Origin: a virus | Reading direction: 5' to 3' (one strand) | Length of the DNA stretch: 23,048 nt | Virus record (IMG/VR): IMGVR_UViG_3300037070_008748 | Coordinates: 1-23,048 of that record | In this document: positions 5,243 to 15,802 of the stretch, piece after piece | Layout of the letters: every line of letters begins with the position of its first letter | How positions within the stretch are numbered: position 1 is the first letter of the stretch | Notes under the pieces: model-generated | The model's database searches: none | What the model was told of the DNA's origin: nothing | What the model saw: only the letters and a program-made list of their open reading frames with translations | Program-made: the position numbers and the translations under genes

Positions 5243-6217
5243 ATGGGAACCGAGAACGTAGCCTACGGCTCCGCGAGCTTCCCCGACGTCCCGTCTGTGG
5301 CCGTGGGAGCGGGCTTCAAGACCAACCTCGCCCTGATGCTGCCGACCGGTCGCATTGCGGCCTACGTGCGTGCCACGCCTGTGAACGGCGACCCGCCGGA
5401 GATCGAGCAGCGCCGCTACAAGACGCTCGCCGACGCGCTCAAGCAGTGCCGGCCGGGCGCGGGCGACATCGTCGCGGTCCTGCCTGGCCACACGGAGAAC
5501 GTGGTCGACGCCACGATGCTCAACAACCTCGTGGACGGTACGGTGATCCTGGGCCTGGGCTCGACCCGCCAGGACAACGCGCCCACGTTCCGCTGGACGG
5601 CGGCTGCCGCGAAGTGGCTCATCAGCAAGAAGAACGTCACGATCCAGGGGCTCCGGCTTCGGCTCGAGGGCTTCAACGGCGTGGTGAAGGCCATCGAGAT
5701 CACGGGCATCGGCAACACCCTGTCCGGCAACACCATCGAGGTCGCGAGCGCTGCGGCGCTGAAGGCCACCATCGCCATCGAGGTCGGCACGGGCGCGCAC
5801 GACACGTCCATCGTCGGCAACTACATCTTCGGCACGGCGACCCACAACGTGACGGACGGCATCAACGTGGTGGGAGCAGCGCCCCCGGCGCGTCTGCGCA
5901 TCACCGACAACGAGATGCTGTTCAGCGCCACCGCGGCGAACGGGCTCATCCACGTCCGCGCCGCGGCCCTACAGCTCTTGATCTCCCGCAACATCCTCTA
6001 CAACACGATGACCGCCTCCACGTCGGCCATCACGCTCGACGCAGTCGCCGCCGACGGCATCATCGCGAGCAACATGATCGGCATTCTCACCAACGGGGTG
6101 GCCGCTGCGACGGGCATCCTGACGGGCGCCACGGCGCTGGTGAAGTGCTTCCTGAACCTGTGTGCGGACGAGCCCCGTGCCAGCGGTGTGCTCAGTCCGG
6201 CGGCCGTGGCCACCTGA
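5243..6217 (+). CDS. Right-handed beta-helix virion protein, paralog of the 7280 gene (324 aa)
   Basis: ATG at 5243 follows AAGGAG (5233-5238), with only 9 nt after the capsid gene stop. Residues 60-85 (KTLADALKQC, DIVAVLPGHTENV) begin a parallel beta-helix: a helix cap, then strands with repeating turns (GTVILGLGSTR, KNVTIQGLRLR, IGNTLSGNTIEVAS, DTSIVGNYIFG, LRITDNEMLFSA, LLISRNILYNT, DGIIASNMIGI). The spaced N/G-rich turns are typical of pectin-lyase-like helices. It lacks the N-terminal anchor of the two larger spikes, so it may bind the capsid shell or a head vertex. No catalytic residues can be assigned. It is paralogous to the protein at 7280-8104 (KTLADAL versus KTLAQAL; LPGHTENV versus LDGHAEVF). 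Structural role is likely; precise location is unknown. Confidence 0.72.
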   Translation: MGTENVAYGSASFPDVPSVAVGAGFKTNLALMLPTGRIAAYVRATPVNGDPPEIEQRRYKTLADALKQCRPGAGDIVAVLPGHTENVVDATMLNNLVDGTVILGLGSTRQDNAPTFRWTAAAAKWLISKKNVTIQGLRLRLEGFNGVVKAIEITGIGNTLSGNTIEVASAAALKATIAIEVGTGAHDTSIVGNYIFGTATHNVTDGINVVGAAPPARLRITDNEMLFSATAANGLIHVRAAALQLLISRNILYNTMTASTSAITLDAVAADGIIASNMIGILTNGVAAATGILTGATALVKCFLNLCADEPRASGVLSPAAVAT

Positions 6218-6244
6218 TCGCGGTTCACGGGCCGTGACCAAACT

Positions 6245-6277
6245 GGCCCCTGGGACACCGGGGGCCTTTCGTCTTTC
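6245..6277 (+). terminator. Rho-independent terminator after the capsid operon
   Basis: GGCCCC-T-GG (6245-6253) pairs with CC-G-GGGGCC (6258-6266) around the loop GACA. This gives a 9-bp, very GC-rich stem with one T-G wobble, followed by TTTCGTCTTTC. A weaker hairpin (CACG/CGTG, extended by GGT/ACC) lies just upstream at 6222-6239. Position at the end of the head genes fits. The next gene's ribosome-binding site begins at 6278, so read-through must supply the tail genes. Confidence 0.85.
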
Positions 6278-6288
6278 AGGAGGGCATC

Positions 6289-6576
6289 GTGCGCACCATC
6301 GGCAAACACTGGCCCAAGAGCTGGCGCGGAAGCTACGCGGCGCACTGCGACTACTGCGGAGTGCGCTGGCCCCGCTTCAAGATGGTGCGCGACGCCGCAG
6401 GCCTTCTTGCGTGCCCCGACGACCAGGCCGGCAGGGACGAGGTCACCCTCGACCAGGAGAACGCCGCAGGCGCGGCCGAGGTGGCCTCCCACGAGTCCAA
6501 CCACGACGGCGGCTCCTACTTCCGCGTGGACATCCACGCCGTCCCCATCCAGCGCCTGACCCGGGAGGACATCTGA
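6289..6576 (+). CDS. Small CxxC (zinc-ribbon-like) phage protein (95 aa)
   Basis: GTG at 6289 follows AGGAGGG (6278-6284), immediately after the terminator T-run. The motif HCDYCGVRW (Cys20, Cys23), an 18-residue spacer (PRFKMVRDAAGLLA) and CPDD (Cys42) resemble a small treble-clef family found next to connector genes in many phages. That family usually has CxxC...CxxC. Here the fourth ligand position is Asp, so zinc binding would need Asp or His19, or may be lost. The C-terminal half is polar and acidic, ending in VDIHAVPIQRLTREDI. The stop overlaps the next ATG (TGATG). A virion-assembly role is inferred from context only. Confidence 0.65.
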   Translation: MRTIGKHWPKSWRGSYAAHCDYCGVRWPRFKMVRDAAGLLACPDDQAGRDEVTLDQENAAGAAEVASHESNHDGGSYFRVDIHAVPIQRLTREDI

Positions 6577-7280
6577 TGACCGTCAACCCCGAGAGCACCC
6601 GCGAGCTCGACATCGACCGCATCGTCATGCTGGCCGTGCAGACGGCTGGCGTCCTGCCGGCGGGCTCGCCGCGCTCGGGCCGCCAGTGGGACAACCTCGC
6701 CGCCCAGGCTCGAGACTTTCTCGAGATCAACATGGACCACATGCAGGCCCTCGGGTCCTTCGGCCGGTCCATCGAGATGTACGACGTGGCCATCGAGGAG
6801 GGCGTCCTGAACTACGACCTGCCCTCGACGACGCTGATCGTGGTGGGCGACGCCCAGTACGCCTCGACGCTGGACGGCGGCTCCACGTACGTGCGGCAGG
6901 TGACGCGCGAGGAGTACATGGGCATCGGCGACAAGACGAGCAAGGGGCGGCCGAGCATCTTCTACTCGCAGATGCACGCCACCACGACGCTCTTCCTGTG
7001 GCCGATTCCTGACACGGACGGCGTGCTCGAGATCCAGCGCAGCCGCCTGCTCGCGGACAACGACGACGGCGCGTCCACCGTCGACCTCGAGCGCCACTGG
7101 ATGAAGTTCGTGCTCTACGACCTGGCCCACAGCATCGCCGTGGCGAACTCGGTGAACCCGATCCGCTGCGGCTACCTGCGCAGCCAGGCGGATGCCGCGC
7201 TCGGGCCCTCGAAGCGCCTGGCCACGAGCAAGGGACCGGGGCGCGCGGTGCTCTCTCACCCCACAGGATGGAGGCGGTAA
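6576..7280 (+). CDS. Head-tail connector/adaptor, P22 gp4- or T7 gp11-like (234 aa)
   Basis: ATG at 6576 overlaps the previous stop and follows GGGAGGA (6562-6568). N-terminal helices (DIDRIVMLAVQTAGVLPAG; DNLAAQARDFLEINMDHMQA) precede a small beta domain (LNYDLPSTTLIVVGDAQYAS, STYVRQVTREEYMGIGDK, GRPSIFYSQ, TLFLWPIPDTDGVLEIQRSR). It ends in a helical region (LERHWMKFVLYDLAHSIAVA). An N-terminal helical bundle, then a core with a REEY...GRP..FY...LWP.PD pattern, then a closing helix that selects W..L..LA, is typical of podovirus adaptors that bind under the portal ring. It would link the portal to the gp10-like hub encoded at 12475. Family by pattern and synteny. Confidence 0.75.
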   Translation: MTVNPESTRELDIDRIVMLAVQTAGVLPAGSPRSGRQWDNLAAQARDFLEINMDHMQALGSFGRSIEMYDVAIEEGVLNYDLPSTTLIVVGDAQYASTLDGGSTYVRQVTREEYMGIGDKTSKGRPSIFYSQMHATTTLFLWPIPDTDGVLEIQRSRLLADNDDGASTVDLERHWMKFVLYDLAHSIAVANSVNPIRCGYLRSQADAALGPSKRLATSKGPGRAVLSHPTGWRR

Positions 7281-8104
7281 TGCCCACTCAGCTCTACGCC
7301 GGCGGACTCGGCGGCACGGTCGACCCGGTGGCGACGAACAGGCCGTTCTACGGGCTCGACTGCAACGTCTGGTACGTGCACTTCGCAACGGGCTTCGACG
7401 CAGTCGCACCGGCTGGCCGCGACAAGCAGCGCCCGCTCAAGACCCTCGCGCAGGCCCTCGTCAACGCCACGGCGAATGACGTCGTCGTGTTGCTCGACGG
7501 CCACGCCGAGGTGTTCACGGCCCCGCAGGCGATTGGCCAGGCGGGCCTCGTCATCGTCGGATGCGGCCAGACCGCGGGCGTGCCGAACGTGAAGCTCCAG
7601 CTGAACGCGCCCGCAGCCGAGATGATCTCGGTGTTCGCGTCGAGCGTCCAGCTCCGCAACCTCAAGCTCCTGTCGAACGCGCAGGCCAATGCCCTCCCGC
7701 GGGTGTCGGTCCTGGAGGCGGGCTTCGCGATGGACGGCTGCTACGTGGAGTGCGGACCGAACGACGGGGGCCCGGCTGTGGGCCTCGACATCGGAGCCCA
7801 CCACGCGCTCATCCGCGACACGACCATCATCTCCACGGCTCTCGTGCCGTCGGCGAGGCCCGCTCGCGGTCTGAGCGTCACGAACGCGGCGGGCCTGCGC
7901 GGTCTCCACCTGGACGGCCTGGTCGTCTCGGACGGCGTGTGCGGCTTCTCGAGCGGCTACGGTCTGGACCTGAGCACGGGCCCTACGCTCGACCTGAAGG
8001 GTGACCGCGTGAGCCTGCTGCTCGGCGCGTCGGCGAAGCTCGGCGCCCTCACCACTGGATACATCATCCCCGTCGTCACCGGTGGCGGCGCCATCGACGT
8101 GTGA
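7280..8104 (+). CDS. Second small beta-helix virion protein, paralog of the 5243 gene (274 aa)
   Basis: An upstream in-frame ATG at 7268 exists, but ATG 7280 overlaps the previous stop (TAATG) and has GGAGG (7270-7274) at good spacing, so 7280 is chosen. After an N-terminal lead (RPFYGLDCNVWYVHFATGFD), residues 51-80 (RPLKTLAQALVNATANDVVV, LLDGHAEVF) and following strands (GLVIVGCGQTAG, SSVQLRNLKLLS, GFAMDGCYVECG, HALIRDTTIIST, LRGLHLDGLVVSDG) form a right-handed beta helix. The match to the 5243 product is at the helix cap and first coils. The C-terminus (TGYIIPVVTGGGAIDV) is not shared. It is separated from its paralog by the terminator, a small protein and the connector. It may be tail- rather than head-attached. 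Confidence 0.72.
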   Translation: MPTQLYAGGLGGTVDPVATNRPFYGLDCNVWYVHFATGFDAVAPAGRDKQRPLKTLAQALVNATANDVVVLLDGHAEVFTAPQAIGQAGLVIVGCGQTAGVPNVKLQLNAPAAEMISVFASSVQLRNLKLLSNAQANALPRVSVLEAGFAMDGCYVECGPNDGGPAVGLDIGAHHALIRDTTIISTALVPSARPARGLSVTNAAGLRGLHLDGLVVSDGVCGFSSGYGLDLSTGPTLDLKGDRVSLLLGASAKLGALTTGYIIPVVTGGGAIDV

Positions 8105-8115
8105 AAGGTTGAGCC

Positions 8116-8628
8116 ATGCCACCTCCCGAGAAGAAGAAGAACGACAAGAACGTGGACGCTGCCTGGGGGACGGTGGGCCAGGCCCCGTCCGCGGAGGGCT
8201 TCTACGACAAGTACTCACCCGAGACCCTCGCCCAGTCGGGCTCGAGGGGCACTGGGCGGCCTGACATCTCTCTCGTGCAACTCAGGGACGCCATCAACCT
8301 CGTTCTGCAGAACGACCCAAGCGCCGCAGACCCCGCCGAGTACGACGCGGAGCGAAGCCAGACGGAGGCCAACGAGACCCTTGGGGCCGTGGAGGCCGCG
8401 TACGACGCGCCGGACAGGGACGAGATCAGTCAGCTCGACGACGCGCCCGAGGACTGGCAGCGACAGCCGCTGCCGGAGTGGTTCGAGGCTCCCGCCCAGG
8501 CCGAGATGCGCAGGCGGGAGGGCTGGGACCCGACCCCCAGGGCCCATTACGAAGAGCCAGGGCCAGGCTGGCTCGAGGACTCCCGACGGCAGGAGCCGCC
8601 ACCGGCGAGGAAAAAGGGCAAGCGCTAG
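8116..8628 (+). CDS. Lys/Pro-capped acidic protein (170 aa), unknown
   Basis: ATG at 8116 follows a modest ribosome-binding site GAAAGG (8103-8108). N-terminus MPPPEKKKNDKNVDAAWG is basic and C-terminus EPPPARKKGKR is basic too. The middle is acidic and rich in Pro, Trp and Asp (DAPDRDEISQLDDAPEDWQR, PLPEWFEAP, REGWDP). No membrane segment, cysteine or catalytic motif is seen. It may be largely extended and bind a partner at both ends. The MPPPxKKK start is shared with the next gene, although the rest of the two proteins differs. Position between tail proteins suggests a minor virion or assembly factor. No family is recognised. Confidence 0.65.
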   Translation: MPPPEKKKNDKNVDAAWGTVGQAPSAEGFYDKYSPETLAQSGSRGTGRPDISLVQLRDAINLVLQNDPSAADPAEYDAERSQTEANETLGAVEAAYDAPDRDEISQLDDAPEDWQRQPLPEWFEAPAQAEMRRREGWDPTPRAHYEEPGPGWLEDSRRQEPPPARKKGKR

Positions 8629-8630
8629 CC

Positions 8631-9029
8631 ATGCCGCCCCCCAAGAAGAAGCCAGCTCCGAAGAAGCGCTGCGACTGCGACAAGCCGAGTCCGCAGGAAA
8701 GCAGCGACGACTTCTCGCCGTTGTCGTTGGAGGGGAAACCGGAGCACTCGTTCGCGCCCCGCGCGCCTTCGCCGGCAGACACGCTTCCAATAGACCCGTT
8801 TGCAGACCCCCACGCGGCAGTGCCGATCCCCCCGTGGACCGGCCCGCACAAGTACGGGTGGGGGAAAAGACTCAAGCCGCAACCGTTCCCGCCGCCGCCG
8901 CTGCCAAGCCAATCCGAGGAGCTTCTCGACAAGGTTCTCAACCTCTTCAGGGAACGACCGGGCCCCACGTGGGAAGAGCTCAACCCGCCCGACAACGGAA
9001 CGATGACCGCGAAAAGGCCAGTGTACTGA
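8631..9029 (+). CDS. Pro-rich basic-start protein (132 aa), unknown
   Basis: ATG at 8631 lies 2 nt after the previous stop. The only nearby Shine-Dalgarno-like run is AAGGG about 12 nt upstream, so translation may depend on coupling. The product begins MPPPKKKPAPKKRCDCDKPS, with an isolated CDC motif. It is Pro-rich throughout (PIPPWTGPHKYGWGKRLKP, FPPPPLPSQSEELLDKVL). One amphipathic helix (SEELLDKVLNLFRER) is predicted near residues 94-108, and the C-terminus is polar (NGTMTAKRPVY). Its stop overlaps the ATG of the first spike (TGATG). A role linked to spike attachment or folding is possible from position alone. No family is recognised. Confidence 0.6.
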   Translation: MPPPKKKPAPKKRCDCDKPSPQESSDDFSPLSLEGKPEHSFAPRAPSPADTLPIDPFADPHAAVPIPPWTGPHKYGWGKRLKPQPFPPPPLPSQSEELLDKVLNLFRERPGPTWEELNPPDNGTMTAKRPVY

Positions 9030-10801
9030 TGCACCTGATCGCCCCACTCATGACCGGCATCCACGGAGCCAAGAACGGCACCGTGTTCACGTACGAACGT
9101 GGCACCACGACGCCTGCGCCGGTCTACGCCGACGCGAGCGGCAAGGTGCGCCGTCATGGCGCGGTGCGACTCGATGCGCTCGGCTCCGTGTCGCTCTACG
9201 TCGACCGCCTCGTGGACGTCGCCGTGTACGACTGGCACGCCGCCCTGGTACGCGAGTGGACGGACGGACGCGCAGACGGCGCGGTGATCGTCGAGAGCGA
9301 CGCGTTCACCGGCGTGGACTACGAGACGGGCGTGAGCGCCGTCGGCGAGCGCACGACCATGGCGGAGGCGTTCGCCCGGCTCGTCGGCAGCGCAGGGGCG
9401 CTCGACTGGGACGTGCTCTATCAGGGCGCCCCTGTGCCCGTGTACGCGGCCATCGGGAACGTTGCCGGGCTCTTCTTCAGCCCGGACAACTACGGAGCCG
9501 TGGGCGACGGCAGCGGCGACGACGTGGCGGCCATCCAGGCGGCCATCGAAGCGGCGCGGACGGCCGGCGGCGGGGTCGTGTACCTCCGGCCCGGCCACTA
9601 CATGGTCTCGACGGCTCTTGGCCTGTACGCCGAGGTGTCGCTGGTCGGCGCGGGGGCGGGCTCGACCTTCATCACGATGACGAGCTCCGGGGGCCCGGCC
9701 CTCTACATGTTCGGCAGCAGCAACGCCGACGGCGAGGCCAGACTCCCGTCGCACACCCTGGCCGGTGTGACGCTGTCCGCCAACGTCACGACGGTGGAGC
9801 CGCTCGTCTACATGACCTCGGGCAACTCGGCGGTGCAGGAGTGCGTGTTCGACGGCGTGCTCAGCACGGGGCCGCTCCTGTTCATCGATCACCTCGAGGG
9901 GTGCAGGATCGGTGACTGCCGGTTCCTGATCGCCGTGGCCACCACCACCGCCATTGACACGTACGACATCACCAGGCCGCTCCCCCCGCTCGCGCGCTGC
10001 TACGTGGACGGCTGCTCGTTCGTCACGCCGCCCGAGCACACGGCCGCGAGGGGCGTGGTGGGCACGGCGCGCTTTCACCTGAGCGACTGCATGTTCGACC
10101 TGAGAGCGTCGACCACGGGCACGGTGCGCTGCGTCCAGCTCGAGGGCGACTGCTACTCGGTGCTCGACGGCTGCGAGATGACGGCCACGGTCGGGGCCTC
10201 GGCAACGCTGCTCGCCATGGGCGTTCTGAACAGCGCGGCGGAGCGGATCTTCGAGGACTGCTCGGTCTGCAACAACGTGGCGAGCACCTCGCTCTATGTC
10301 ATCGCGGAAGGCAACCAGCCGAACCTCTACTACTGCCGACTCAAGAGCGTCGAAGCGCGCCACTCGCCGATCGTGCAGGACACGTTGGCGTTGCAGGCGG
10401 GCCTCGTTCATCCGGTGGCGCCTGACGCGTCGCAGTACGGCATCTTCTCCGTCTTCAACACGACGGCGTCCGTGCTGGGGGCGCCGGACAGCGGGCTTGT
10501 AGTGGGGGCGGTGGACGTCGCCACGAACACCTCCAACATCCCCCTCGGCCGCGTGTTCGACGTCCTGTACTTCAGCACGAACCCGGAGACCTTCCAGGTG
10601 CTGGACAACCGCACGCGGATGAGCGCCATGGGCCGGTTCATCATGAAGGCGACGAGCGTGTACGCGTTCAGGATGATGTCGGCCCGGGTGTTTGCGCAGT
10701 CTCCTGTCGTCGGCGAAATCACGCGCCTGTGCTGCCTCACGACCGGCGCGCAGGCCTCGCTGGCAGACCCCACGCAACAAGAGTCGTACGGGCCAATCTG
10801 A
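9029..10801 (+). CDS. Pectate-lyase-fold spike/depolymerase candidate 1 (590 aa)
   Basis: ATG at 9029 overlaps the previous stop; AAAAGG lies about 10 nt upstream. Residues 1-120 form an anchor module shared with the next spike (GIHGAKNGTVFTYERGT; LVDVAVYDW; DAFTGVDYETG near 91-101). At 154-195 comes a typical Pectate_lyase_3 (pectin-lyase fold) start: NYGAVGDGSGDDVAAIQAAI and GGGVVYLRPGHYMVS. Beta-helix coils run to about 460, with many Cys/Asp turns (EGCRIGDCRFL, YVDGCSFV, VLDGCEMTATV, FEDCSVCNN). A different C-terminal region begins at SQYGIFSVFNT and ends LCCLTTGAQAS..., which may cap or trimerise the helix. Catalytic acids cannot be assigned by eye. It most likely recognises or degrades host surface polysaccharide; pure binding is possible. 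Confidence 0.8.
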   Translation: MHLIAPLMTGIHGAKNGTVFTYERGTTTPAPVYADASGKVRRHGAVRLDALGSVSLYVDRLVDVAVYDWHAALVREWTDGRADGAVIVESDAFTGVDYETGVSAVGERTTMAEAFARLVGSAGALDWDVLYQGAPVPVYAAIGNVAGLFFSPDNYGAVGDGSGDDVAAIQAAIEAARTAGGGVVYLRPGHYMVSTALGLYAEVSLVGAGAGSTFITMTSSGGPALYMFGSSNADGEARLPSHTLAGVTLSANVTTVEPLVYMTSGNSAVQECVFDGVLSTGPLLFIDHLEGCRIGDCRFLIAVATTTAIDTYDITRPLPPLARCYVDGCSFVTPPEHTAARGVVGTARFHLSDCMFDLRASTTGTVRCVQLEGDCYSVLDGCEMTATVGASATLLAMGVLNSAAERIFEDCSVCNNVASTSLYVIAEGNQPNLYYCRLKSVEARHSPIVQDTLALQAGLVHPVAPDASQYGIFSVFNTTASVLGAPDSGLVVGAVDVATNTSNIPLGRVFDVLYFSTNPETFQVLDNRTRMSAMGRFIMKATSVYAFRMMSARVFAQSPVVGEITRLCCLTTGAQASLADPTQQESYGPI

Positions 10802-10807
10802 GGAACC

Positions 10808-12472
10808 ATGCAACTCATCTCAACGTTGGCATCGGGCGTGTTGGGCGCCGAAAACGGGTACGCCAGGATCTTCGTCCGTGGCTCGACCAAGCGCGCGCGT
10901 TACTACACGGACTTCGAGGGCCTCGAGGCGGTGGACGCCTCGGACGTGCAGCTCGACGCCAACGGCGGCGCCGTCGTCTACACGAACATCACCGTGGACG
11001 TGTTCGTGTACGGGGAGAACGACCTGCTCATCCGGCGCTGGGTCGAGTCCTCGACGGACGGCTGCGTGGAGGTCATCAGCCCGTCTTTCACGGGCGCCGA
11101 CTACGAGACCGGCGTGGGCGGGCCGAACAAACCCACCACCGCGGCGTCCGTGTTCGACCGCCTGATCGACAGCTTCGGAGCCGAGGACTTCCTGGTGAAG
11201 ATGCCGGACGGCTCGGAGCTCCCGCTTCAAGAGGCTATCGCCTCCATCCCGGTGCTCTACTTCAACGTCAAGAGTCCCATCTACGGGGCGACCGGCGGCG
11301 GCCTCGCGCCGGACAGGGCTGCCATCCAAGCTGCCATCAACGCCGCGGCGCTGGCCGGCGGCGGCATCGTGTTCTTCCCGGCCGGCGACTACCTCCTGGA
11401 CGGGACCACGCTGACCTTGCCCCCGACGGTGAGTCTGCTCGGCTCGGGCCCGAACGCGTCGAAGCTCATCTCGCCGGCCACGCTTCAGCCTGCGATCACC
11501 GTGCTCACCGCGGGCATCGCTGCGCACACAGTGACGGGCCTCAGGTTCTCGCACAACACCCCGGCGGGGAATCACTTCTGGGGCCTGAGCACGGCGAGAA
11601 TCTTGTTCCGCTCCTGCGCCTTCGAGGTGCGCGCGGGCAACGGCGTCGTCCTGTCGGGCGGCTATGTGGTCATCGACGACTGCGACTTCACCCTCGCCGG
11701 TGCGGGTCGAGCCATCGACTGCACCGTTCCCGGCCGCCAGGGGCGCATGGACGTGAGGCGCTGCCGGTTCGTCATGCTGGCGTCAGGCACCACGAACGCG
11801 ATCATCACCGGCGCCAACATTCACCTCCTCGGGTGTTACTACGACGGCCGGCTGTCCAACGTCCCGGACGTGGTCGTGTTCTGGCCGGACGACCTGGGCG
11901 GCAACGCCTACGGCTCGGCGCGGTGCTGCGAGTTCATCGACTCGGCCACGCGGCCTGTCATCGGCATCTCGATCAGCTCGCTCCTGCTCGCGTCAGAGTG
12001 GTTCACGGAGGACGGCAACTTCATTCTGCGCGCGCACGCGAACTCGGCGCTGGTGCAGATCGGGTCGTTCGCCAGCTCGCCCGGCTACTACTGCAAGCTC
12101 GGGTCGCGCGAGAACCGCATCCGCTCGCTGGCCACGGCGGCGGCCACCATCAACCTCAACCAGACGGGGGAGTACGGCATCTTCAACATCCGCTCGACGT
12201 TCGCGGGCGGACTCATCCTGCAGCCGGACGTGACGGCTCCGTTCGGAGCGCGGCTCAAGATCTTGCTGGTGAACGCTGACCCCGTGCTGCGCAACGTGTC
12301 CTTCGGCTCCAACGCTCGAGGAGGCGCCTACAACGTCAGCCCGAACGAGTGCGTCGGCTTCGAGCTGGTGCGCGCTGTCGCGAACAACGGCGTCGCCGAC
12401 GTGCCGGCCTGGTACGTGGTGGGCACGAGCGGCTGCCTGACGACTGGCGTCGATGCCAGCTACCCGGTGTAA
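10808..12472 (+). CDS. Pectate-lyase-fold spike/depolymerase candidate 2 (554 aa)
   Basis: ATG at 10808 is 6 nt after the first spike's stop, with GAGGA (10800-10804) close by. The anchor (1-125) mirrors spike 1: GVLGAENGYARIFVRGST, ITVDVFVYGENDLLIRRW, SPSFTGADYETGVG. The pectate-lyase-type cap is at 151-195 (YFNVKSPIYGATGGG, APDRAAIQAAINAA, GGGIVFFPAGDYLL). Beta-helix coils follow (AHTVTGLRFSHN, ARILFRSCAFEVR, GYVVIDDCDFTLAG, RMDVRRCRFVM, NIHLLGCYYDGR). The tail begins GEYGIFNIRST and ends CLTTGVDASYPV, matching spike 1's CLTTGAQAS. Middle coils are not obviously alignable to spike 1. Tandem duplication followed by divergence of the receptor part is inferred. Confidence 0.8.
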   Translation: MQLISTLASGVLGAENGYARIFVRGSTKRARYYTDFEGLEAVDASDVQLDANGGAVVYTNITVDVFVYGENDLLIRRWVESSTDGCVEVISPSFTGADYETGVGGPNKPTTAASVFDRLIDSFGAEDFLVKMPDGSELPLQEAIASIPVLYFNVKSPIYGATGGGLAPDRAAIQAAINAAALAGGGIVFFPAGDYLLDGTTLTLPPTVSLLGSGPNASKLISPATLQPAITVLTAGIAAHTVTGLRFSHNTPAGNHFWGLSTARILFRSCAFEVRAGNGVVLSGGYVVIDDCDFTLAGAGRAIDCTVPGRQGRMDVRRCRFVMLASGTTNAIITGANIHLLGCYYDGRLSNVPDVVVFWPDDLGGNAYGSARCCEFIDSATRPVIGISISSLLLASEWFTEDGNFILRAHANSALVQIGSFASSPGYYCKLGSRENRIRSLATAAATINLNQTGEYGIFNIRSTFAGGLILQPDVTAPFGARLKILLVNADPVLRNVSFGSNARGGAYNVSPNECVGFELVRAVANNGVADVPAWYVVGTSGCLTTGVDASYPV

Positions 12473-12474
12473 CC

Positions 12475-13959
12475 ATGCCCCGTACCGCCCGCGGCTCCTA
12501 CTCCAGCTCCAGTTCGGGAGCGCTCCCGTTCGGCCCCAACCAGCAGAGCGGGCTCGACCCGCTGTCCTCGAGCATCCAGCTCGCGGTGAACATGGTCATC
12601 GACCAGTCGGGCGCCATCCGTCGCCGGCCGGGCATCTCGAGGTACGAGGGCGCTCCGGAGACGCCCATCGACCCGGAGGGGCTCGACGGCCTCCACGTGG
12701 CCATCAACGGGAAGGTCTACGCAGCGGGCGGCTCAGGCGGCGCACGCAGACTGTACCGCGTCACGCCCACCACGGTGATCGCCCTGTCGGGCACGACGCA
12801 GACCGACCTGATCGGCGACGGTCGCCCCGTGTGGGCCGAGACCGAGGCCATGGTCGTGGTGGCAGCCAGGGGCCAGCCGCAGAAGATCCTCCTCGCCACC
12901 GACGAGAGCTCGCGCCTCGGCGGGAACCCGCCCGCCGGCTCCCACATCATCGCCAACAACGGACGCCTGCTGCTCAACAACGTGGCCGGAAACCTCAACC
13001 GCGTGAACTACTCGGACTTCGCCTCCGGCAGCGCCACGCTCGGCCACGAGACCTGGCTCAGCGCCGCCGACAACGACGCAGGCGAGTTCGTCGGCTCGGC
13101 ACGGCCTGACCCCGTCGTGGCCCTCGCGGAGAACGGCTCCGAGGTCTTCATGTTCGGCACGACGTTCGTGCAGCTGCGCGTCCAGGCTGCCGAGGGCGAG
13201 GTGTATCCGCCTGTGTCATTTCGTGAGCTCGGCTGCTCGGCACCTTACTCGGTGACAAAAATCGACGGTAAGTTTGCCTGGCTCGACCACAGGCGGCGCT
13301 TCGTGATCTCCGACGGTCGCGAGGTCGAGGTCATCTCCGGCACCATCCAGAAGACGCTCGACGAGATCGAGCAGGTGAACGACTGCTTCGGCTACCGCGT
13401 CGTCCTGGGCCCCGTGGACGCCGTCGTGTGGACGTTTCCTGCCGACGGGCGCAGCTTCGCCTACGCCAACGGCGGATGGTCCCAGTGGACGGGCTGGAAC
13501 GAGACCTCGGCCACGTTCGCCCGGCTGGGTGTTTCCTGTGCAGCCGCCCACCCGATCACGGGGCAGAACCTCCTCGGCATGGCCGACGGACGCGTCGGCG
13601 TGCTCGATCATAAGGTCCACACGGACCTGGGAAAAACCATCCCCGTGCGGGCTTTCACGGGCTTTCTGAATCGGGATACTGACGCCATCAAGCACTGCTT
13701 GTCCGTCAGACTGGTCTTCCGACGGGGCACCGTTACGACCGGGCCTGAGCCCACCGCCGTTCTAAGTTGGCGGGACGAAGAGGACGAGTGGTCCCCTGGA
13801 ATTGAGGTCGGTCTGGGCCATCCGGGCGATCGCAGTCCCGTGGTAGTGTTGCGGAGCCTGGGCACCTACCGCAGGCGGCAGTGGCGCATCGACTTCGACG
13901 GCGACTCCGAGTTCGCCTTGGCGAGTGCCAGCGAAGAGTACGAGCTCGAGGAGGAGTGA
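12475..13959 (+). CDS. Tail hub / DNA-stabilisation protein, P22 gp10-like (494 aa)
   Basis: ATG at 12475 lies 2 nt after the spike 2 stop. No good Shine-Dalgarno is visible, so coupling is likely. A Ser-rich N-terminus (SYSSSSSGALPFG) precedes the family-typical start: AVNMVIDQSGAIRRRPGISR (37-56). Beta-propeller-like repeats follow (DGLHVAINGKVYAAGG, AMVVVAARGQPQKILLATD, SHIIANNGRLLLNNVAGNLN, RVNYSDF...W, DPVVALAENGSEVFMFG, KFAWLDHRRRFVISDGRE). This is the layout of P22 gp10 and T7 gp12-like nozzle proteins, which close the portal/connector channel and stabilise packaged DNA. It probably binds the connector encoded at 6576. The C-terminus is acidic (ASASEEYELEEE). Family assigned by residue pattern and context. 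Confidence 0.75.
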   Translation: MPRTARGSYSSSSSGALPFGPNQQSGLDPLSSSIQLAVNMVIDQSGAIRRRPGISRYEGAPETPIDPEGLDGLHVAINGKVYAAGGSGGARRLYRVTPTTVIALSGTTQTDLIGDGRPVWAETEAMVVVAARGQPQKILLATDESSRLGGNPPAGSHIIANNGRLLLNNVAGNLNRVNYSDFASGSATLGHETWLSAADNDAGEFVGSARPDPVVALAENGSEVFMFGTTFVQLRVQAAEGEVYPPVSFRELGCSAPYSVTKIDGKFAWLDHRRRFVISDGREVEVISGTIQKTLDEIEQVNDCFGYRVVLGPVDAVVWTFPADGRSFAYANGGWSQWTGWNETSATFARLGVSCAAAHPITGQNLLGMADGRVGVLDHKVHTDLGKTIPVRAFTGFLNRDTDAIKHCLSVRLVFRRGTVTTGPEPTAVLSWRDEEDEWSPGIEVGLGHPGDRSPVVVLRSLGTYRRRQWRIDFDGDSEFALASASEEYELEEE

Positions 13960-13961
13960 CC

Positions 13962-14597
13962 ATGGCGGATGCATACGGCGGCTCTGGCGGCATGGTTGGC
14001 TACAACAACGACTACTACAGCCCCGAGAACGTTCGGGACCGTGCCGACCGAGACAACTCCGCGTTTCGCAGCACGGCCACCGGCGGCGCCATGAGCGGCG
14101 CGGGCACCGGCGCGATGTTGGGTTCGTCTGTGGCCGGTCCGTGGGGAGCTCTGTTCGGTGGCCTCTTCGGCGGTGCAGGCGGCGCGCTGAAGGGCATGCT
14201 CAACGCGGGCGACGCGGAGAAGGAGCGTCGGCGTAAGGAGCGAGCTTGGGAAGAGGCGAAGAAGAGCCTCGCGCGCGAGCGCTACCAGGCCCGCGTGGCG
14301 ACGCACGCCATGCTCAGCAACGCCTACTCGCCCGCGAACGCGTGGATGAAGCAGAACTACGGTGGCGACGCAGGCCAGGACCTGAACAAGACCCCGTGGG
14401 GCACGGTCGACCCGAACAATCCCCCGCAGGCGCAGAACTTCGACCAGTACGGCGGCGCGAGGACGCGCTCGTCGTCGGGCGGTGGCAAGGCCCCGGCCAA
14501 GAAGTCGAGCAGCGGCAGCTCGTCGAGCGGTCGGCAGACTCCGAGCCCTGAGCCGGCTCCGGCGGGGAAGCCTCCTCGCAAGCCAAGGGAGCGCTGA
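13962..14597 (+). CDS. Ejection protein with glycine-zipper segment, T7 gp14-like (211 aa)
   Basis: ATG at 13962 follows GAGGAGGAG (13948-13956). N-terminus is Gly/Tyr/Asn-rich. Residues 38-80 are dominated by Gly/Ala/small residues (GGAMSGAGTGAMLGSSVAG, WGALFGGLFGGAGGALKGML), a glycine-zipper-like segment able to insert in membranes. A basic helix follows (DAEKERRRKERAWEEAKKS). The C-terminal third is disordered, Ser/Gly/Lys/Pro-rich (KAPAKKSSSGSSSSGRQ). Length and position are close to T7 gp14 (196 aa), which forms an outer-membrane channel during infection. It is the first of four adjacent ejection genes. The function is inferred; sequence identity to gp14 was not tested. Confidence 0.65.
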   Translation: MADAYGGSGGMVGYNNDYYSPENVRDRADRDNSAFRSTATGGAMSGAGTGAMLGSSVAGPWGALFGGLFGGAGGALKGMLNAGDAEKERRRKERAWEEAKKSLARERYQARVATHAMLSNAYSPANAWMKQNYGGDAGQDLNKTPWGTVDPNNPPQAQNFDQYGGARTRSSSGGGKAPAKKSSSGSSSSGRQTPSPEPAPAGKPPRKPRER

Positions 14598-14599
14598 CC

Positions 14600-15802
14600 A
14601 TGGGAAAGATTGGCAGAGGCATCAGGGACTTCTTCACCGACCCAGGCGGCGGCGACAGGGCCGCGGAGCAGGCCGCTCAAGCGCGCGCTGCGCAGAAGGC
14701 GAAGTACGACAAGGACAACCTTGGCGGCACGACGTCGGGTCCGCTTGTGTCCGCGGACAGCGTCCGGGAACAGGAGGCCGCGAAGGCGGATGCTGCGCGC
14801 ACGGCGGCTGCGAACGCGCAGGTCCCTGGCGTGCTCGATGCGCCGGGCGACGTCGAAAACGCCTACGCCGAGCACGGGCAAGACTTCTTCGCGCCCAGTA
14901 ACCAGGACGACTTCTACAGCAAGGCCGGCGCTGCGTTCGAGGCTCCTGGTGTCGGTGAGCGGATGGGTGGCCAGGTCGCCGACGACCTCTACGTGGGCTC
15001 GCAGGGGTCGTCTTACGGCCAGGACTTCTACGAGGGCCAGCAGGGCTCTGGAGGCATGATTCCCCAGGCCTGGAAGGAGATGAACGAGAGCGTCGCGCCC
15101 GACCTCGGCGGCTACTACGACCTCGCCTTCCAGAAGGACCAGCGCCGGCTCAACCGCGCGTCGGCGGCTCGCGGCAGTCTCAACAGCACCGCTGCGATGC
15201 GGGGGCTGCAGGAGGCCTCGTCGGCGAACTCGGCGCAGCAGGCGAAGGACGAGTACACGTACAAGCTCGAACGCTCGAAGGCGCTCGGCGACCTGGCCGT
15301 GCGCGGCACCCAGACCATGGGCGAGCTCGCGTTCAGCGCGGGCGACGAGCGGCGTGAGTACGGAGAGGCGGCGGCGCAGGTGGCCGACCAGGCGCAGAAG
15401 AGTGAGCTCGAACGCCTTGCCACGGGCTTCGAGGCCAACATGGGCCGCGACAACACCAGACTCGCGGGCTTGGTCGGCGGAATGAACGCGGCCGACATCG
15501 CGCAGGCCGCGCGCGAGAAGCGCATCACCTACGAGCAGGAGGTGAACTTGCGGATGGCGGAGATCATCGCCGGGACCTGGGGCGGCTTCATGGAAGGCGA
15601 CTCTGCGCGCGGAGAGACCGGCGCGGCCACTGCGCTGTCGGGAGAAACCGATGCAAACAACCAGGCGAAAAACGACGCCCTCGCGCGCCAGCAGCGGTGG
15701 AACGACTTCGTGGAGTCGCTCTCGAAGTATGGTGGCGGCAATGGTGGTTCTGGCGGCACTGGCGGAGCCACCCCTACGGGTGGCACTGGCAGCGGAGGAT
15801 AA
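14600..15802 (+). CDS. Internal virion (ejection) protein, helical (400 aa)
   Basis: ATG at 14600 follows AAGGGAG (14584-14590). A short amphipathic N-terminal helix (GKIGRGIRDFFTDP) precedes Ala/Gln-rich helices (AAEQAAQARAAQKAKYDKDN). A flexible Tyr/Gly/Asp-rich region (GQDFFAPSNQDDFYSKAG) comes next. Then there is a long helical stretch (about 165-330) rich in Ala/Glu/Arg, such as ASAARGSLNSTAAMRGLQEA. The C-terminus is a Gly/Thr-rich tail (GGGNGGSGGTGGATPTGG). Such Ala-rich helical proteins with a flexible tail are common among ejection proteins packed around the portal, as with P22 gp7/gp20. It has no T7 counterpart by position. Assignment is by composition and neighbours only. Confidence 0.6.
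   Translation: MGKIGRGIRDFFTDPGGGDRAAEQAAQARAAQKAKYDKDNLGGTTSGPLVSADSVREQEAAKADAARTAAANAQVPGVLDAPGDVENAYAEHGQDFFAPSNQDDFYSKAGAAFEAPGVGERMGGQVADDLYVGSQGSSYGQDFYEGQQGSGGMIPQAWKEMNESVAPDLGGYYDLAFQKDQRRLNRASAARGSLNSTAAMRGLQEASSANSAQQAKDEYTYKLERSKALGDLAVRGTQTMGELAFSAGDERREYGEAAAQVADQAQKSELERLATGFEANMGRDNTRLAGLVGGMNAADIAQAAREKRITYEQEVNLRMAEIIAGTWGGFMEGDSARGETGAATALSGETDANNQAKNDALARQQRWNDFVESLSKYGGGNGGSGGTGGATPTGGTGSGG

Follow-up and report, generated by a model that had tools for sequence, protein, structure and literature searches.

Why a short-tailed phage should carry two tailspike-like genes side by side, and how the two came to differ, is the question raised by the window analysed here, the whole 23 kb fragment IMGVR_UViG_3300037070_008748 of an uncultured podovirus. 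The gene order around the spikes is P22-like, with genes for a portal-like protein, the capsid protein, a gp4-like adaptor, the spikes and an Hc3 head-closure protein, and the features on which the argument turns are listed below.

6576-7280, + strand: tail-adaptor-like gene, P22 gp4-like by position, with weak PHROG matches (phrog_12985, E 3e-4; phrog_399, E 0.005)
9029-10801, + strand: tailspike 1, 590 aa, from ORF and alignment, with PF12708 at residues 153-233 (E 5e-16)
9029-9403, + strand: anchor domain of spike 1, 83% identical to the orthologous anchor of L004/L084 and keeping 11 of 12 near-invariant family positions
10808-12472, + strand: tailspike 2, 554 aa, from ORF and alignment, with PF12708 (E 2e-9)
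10808-11185, + strand: anchor domain of spike 2, 85% identical to the orthologous anchor of L004/L084 and keeping 10 of 12 near-invariant family positions
12469-13959, + strand: head-closure (Hc3) hub protein, phrog_578 (E 2.3e-21), directly downstream of spike 2

The presence of two tandem spikes, as a preliminary description of the locus had proposed, was borne out, the genes being neighbours on the same strand with a 6 bp gap between them. Spike 2, which adjoins Hc3, stands where related phages have their single spike. Spike 1 comprises an anchor (residues 1-125), a hinge (126-150), the first helix turns (151-215), a right-handed beta-helix extending to about 440-465 and a poorly modelled C-terminus; spike 2 comprises an anchor (1-126), a helix (about 151-450) and a C-terminal beta-domain (about 455-545). 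Among named phages the capsid protein found matches at less than 30% identity, no protein in the named phage records matched spike 1 or spike 2, and a single-sequence viral scan with spike 1 as the query gave no matches. Two short beta-solenoid genes sit downstream of the capsid gene; the beta-solenoid-like proteins encoded at 5243-6217 and 7268-8104 are conserved across much of the phage group and were without a significant Pfam match, and the second of them is also fast-evolving (56% identity and dN/dS 0.55 against the nearest relative). One contig of the same phage group recovered in the capsid genome scan, L127 (MGMW01000088.1), is filed in the Chloroflexi metagenome-assembled genome RBG_13_53_26, which is too little to claim a Chloroflexi host.

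AlphaFold2 models built from 29-sequence alignments gave both spikes a beta-helix body, with a mean pLDDT of 82.6 for spike 2 and 73.5 for spike 1, in which the last 120 residues are unreliable. Foldseek searches with these models returned the tailspikes of Sf6, HK620, Dettilon and P22 as well as alginate epimerases; the best match of spike 1 was the Sf6 in situ entry 7ukj (E 1.6e-8), spike 2 matched 7chu, Sf6 7ukj and the HK620 and P22 tailspikes, and the full-length matches cover the Sf6 and P22 chains. PF12708 was found in all 29 spikes of the family, scoring above the cut-off in both window spikes, and both anchors matched the family anchor profile (E 1e-52 and 4e-57). The anchor itself had no Pfam match. 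When a profile of 28 anchors was compared with the PDB, the top four matches were tailspike head-binding domains at non-significant E values of 0.15-0.21, while a profile of seven anchors retrieved nothing relevant; kinship with known head-binding domains is thus suggested as a lead rather than proven. Together, the results support the assignment of both proteins as tailspike-type right-handed beta-helices whose virion-proximal anchor is conserved and whose body varies.

The two window spikes (W1 and W2) were then compared domain by domain, with spikes 1 and 2 of the nearest relative, L084 (the same contig as L004), denoted L1 and L2. W1 and W2 are paralogous over their full length (blastp 30%, E 7e-41). 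The common N-terminal anchor of the preliminary description was readily recovered, with 42% identity over residues 1-125, a local score of 225 where shuffled sequences averaged 30 and reached at most 51, and all of the motifs GA.NG, RG, VDV.VY and FTG.DYETG present. Its divergent middle was likewise found, the helices being about 22-27% identical depending on the alignment used (24% in a four-sequence alignment with the nearest relative, 22% in one of 25 spikes). The anchor/helix boundary, which had been placed near residue 150, lies further on, conservation continuing through the first helix turns (49% identity over residues 156-215 in the four-sequence alignment) to about residue 210. The claim of a conserved C-terminal end was not upheld: identity there was 29% in the four-sequence and 19% in the 25-spike alignment, and the last 130 residues gave a local score of 45 against a shuffled maximum of 43. 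The motifs YGIF and CLTTG..AS occur in both W1 and W2, but in L1 they read YGVF and LGVAGGPAS. Across the 25 full-length spikes, column identity was 0.32-0.53 over residues 1-200 and about 0.12-0.31 from there to the end, with most of the C-terminus at about 15-20% mean identity in the family alignment. Of the proposed conserved ends and variable centre, domain-wise identity therefore retained the N-terminal end and the divergent middle, and the pattern is, at the level of sequence, one of a single conserved end (residues 1 to about 215) rather than two.

A capsid-profile scan yielded 38 related viral contigs, among which 21 distinct loci besides the window show a spike next to Hc3, all with the same anchor-plus-helix spike in this slot. 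The tail-adaptor-like gene upstream of the slot is kept in those related loci that cover the region, and Hc3 adjoins the spike in every complete locus except L096, where a short beta-solenoid gene (shelixB) lies between them. A single spike was present in 19 of the 21 loci; tandem spikes occurred in L084, the closest relative of the window, and in L115, which belongs to a distant lineage and has two near relatives, L114 and L116, with a single spike, indicating that spike duplication arose at least twice. Two other arrangements were observed in this survey. In L064 and L067 (5926-8100) an anchor-like N-terminus and a beta-helix body lie in one frame with a single stop codon between them (ORFs 5926-6420 and 6424-8100), which could represent two genes, a recoded stop or an assembly error; in L113 (3378-5040) and L095 (6055-7668) it is the upstream shelixB gene, not the spike, that is tandemly duplicated.

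As regards the origin of the two copies, W1-W2 similarity is ordinary for the family in every domain when set against the background of the 25 spikes; for the anchor, 42% compares with a background median of 38%, and 35% of unrelated pairs are equally or more similar. Since the identity of the pair falls within this background, the duplication is by sequence an old one, so that one copy could also have been acquired from another member of the group. In such an account spike 1 would have arrived as a cassette together with the small genes next to it, with no duplication in this lineage. The block at 8105-9028 immediately upstream of spike 1 (about 0.9 kb), which carries two small Pro/Lys-rich ORFs poorly conserved between the window phage and L084 (equivalent block 13766-14683), speaks for this, being limited to the two tandem-spike phages of the window lineage where single-spike relatives typically have about 10 bp, as does the position of the spike 1 anchor in free anchor trees, on a long branch apart from spike 2. 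However, trees computed with FastTree and a quick IQ-TREE run with AU tests showed that a topology constrained to unite the four anchors was no worse (p-AU 0.61), and the four bodies, those of W1, W2, L1 and L2, formed one group with support of 92. Acquisition as a cassette is thus rather unlikely. A mixed origin of the spikes, read from the first anchor tree in which spike 1 stood apart, was dropped when the AU test gave no ground to reject the union.

Domain swapping is often assumed for tailspikes, and the preliminary description had proposed modular exchange of the part that contacts the host. Here the conserved anchor would serve as a recombination site, one or both bodies having been replaced from another phage, as is common in other phages (PMC10408124, PMC11414711). 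The sharp fall in identity past the anchor in both ortholog pairs would fit such an event: between the window phage and L084 the anchors are 83-85% identical and the helices only 37-46%. Yet each body remains most similar to that of its own ortholog in the sister phage (W1-L1 37%, W2-L2 45%, crosswise 19-24%), and 4-fold silent-site divergence from the nearest relative was 0.38 in the anchors and 0.39 in the helices (p=0.90), with the helix silent sites of orthologs less diverged than those of paralogs (0.58, p=0.015). Bodies swapped in from distant phages would be expected to show saturated silent sites, like those of the paralogs, and the observed 0.39 instead supports change in place. GC3 is extreme (about 0.93) and reduces the power of silent sites, and for this reason the weight is placed on the comparison within genes. 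Silent divergence was slightly higher than in the anchor in the hinge/cap (0.52, p 0.07) and the C-terminus (0.51, p 0.11), both smaller samples, and small exchanges may possibly have occurred there. Among the 25 spikes no two were alike in the body yet unlike in the anchor, and no anchor/body chimera was found. Exchange of whole bodies therefore appears improbable. Between orthologs, dN/dS was 0.23-0.25 in the anchors and 0.83-1.18 in the helices; on these codon comparisons the anchors are under purifying selection and the bodies under weak or diversifying constraint, which supports fast amino-acid change in place, relaxed or diversifying, in the spike bodies from the time of divergence from the nearest relative, if not earlier.

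The reading that we favour, at a probability of roughly 0.72, is that the two proteins are paralogous P22/Sf6-like tailspikes, tandem-derived, which would form separately anchored homotrimers directed at different glycans and whose bodies diverged in place. Most likely, the group's single spike was duplicated in tandem between the tail-adaptor and head-closure genes. From the conservation and position of the anchors, each spike, probably a homotrimer of its own, would dock to the tail hub by its own N-terminal domain, and the beta-helix bodies may recognise, and possibly cleave, surface glycans that differ between the two spikes, which would let a single virion use two receptors. By the evidence of silent sites, the bodies diverged through fast amino-acid change in place and not through exchange of modules, at any rate after the separation from the nearest relative. 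Two different receptor surfaces are plausible because both proteins are of the tailspike type, conserved in the anchor next to the virion and variable in the body. P22/Sf6-like tailspikes are homotrimers, six per virion, on a portal-gp4-gp10 hub. Since both spikes are fully anchored, they might contend for the same six hub sites, or share them out, through their homologous, independently conserved anchors, and virions might carry mixed homotrimers; we put this forward tentatively, as something short of an even chance. If true, mixed spikes would constitute a combinatorial two-receptor array that needs neither adapter nor branching and that arose in the group on at least two occasions.

The spikes might alternatively be heteromeric, either as a mixed trimer or as a branched complex in which one protein rides on the other. 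The genes are adjacent and the anchor is common to both, and branched systems exist (G7C/KP32, Ackermannviridae; PMC6872550), but co-trimerisation is unlikely at a helix identity of about 22%, both spikes have full anchors, unlike the second spike of branched systems, and Pfam scans of the spikes found no T4 gp10-like domain, so that a heteromer is very improbable. That one spike is a remnant in decay or has a different role, as the poorly modelled C-terminus of spike 1 might suggest, is scarcely credible when both frames are open and full-length in two phages whose 4-fold sites have come to differ by about 40% and the anchors are under purifying selection.

Duplication of a spike with a differing receptor part is an ordinary phage route to wider host choice. 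The duplicated tailspike seen here, whose attachment domain is conserved while its body evolves fast, is a real feature but an ordinary one. Its value lies in being a clear case from an uncultured podovirus, in which the protein sequence of the bodies changes at about five times the rate of the anchors at equal silent-site age, an equality that separates fast diversification in place from domain swapping, and in which duplication of spikes with two complete anchors has taken place at least twice within one phage group.

Several known systems invite comparison. G7C and KP32, with their anchor-branched proteins, likewise have two depolymerase-type spikes in one podovirus, but there the second spike is anchorless and is mounted on the first through the latter's gp10-like domain (PMC6872550), whereas both window spikes are anchored. 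The multiple tailspikes TSP1-4 of Ackermannviridae have also been attributed to gene duplication (PMC11414711), but they form a branched four-spike complex with XD domains on a myovirus baseplate, none of which is found here. K1-5 and SP6 are podoviruses in which two spikes give dual glycan specificity; a short peptide at the N-terminus joins these spikes to a separate adapter (PMC5380687), in contrast to the full anchor of about 125 aa borne by each window spike. In the P22/Sf6/HK620 type an N-terminal virion anchor, to whose head-binding domains the window anchors bear a sequence resemblance that is suggestive at most, is followed, as here, by a right-handed beta-helix and the gene lies beside the hub genes, and the window differs in having two paralogous spikes where those phages have one.
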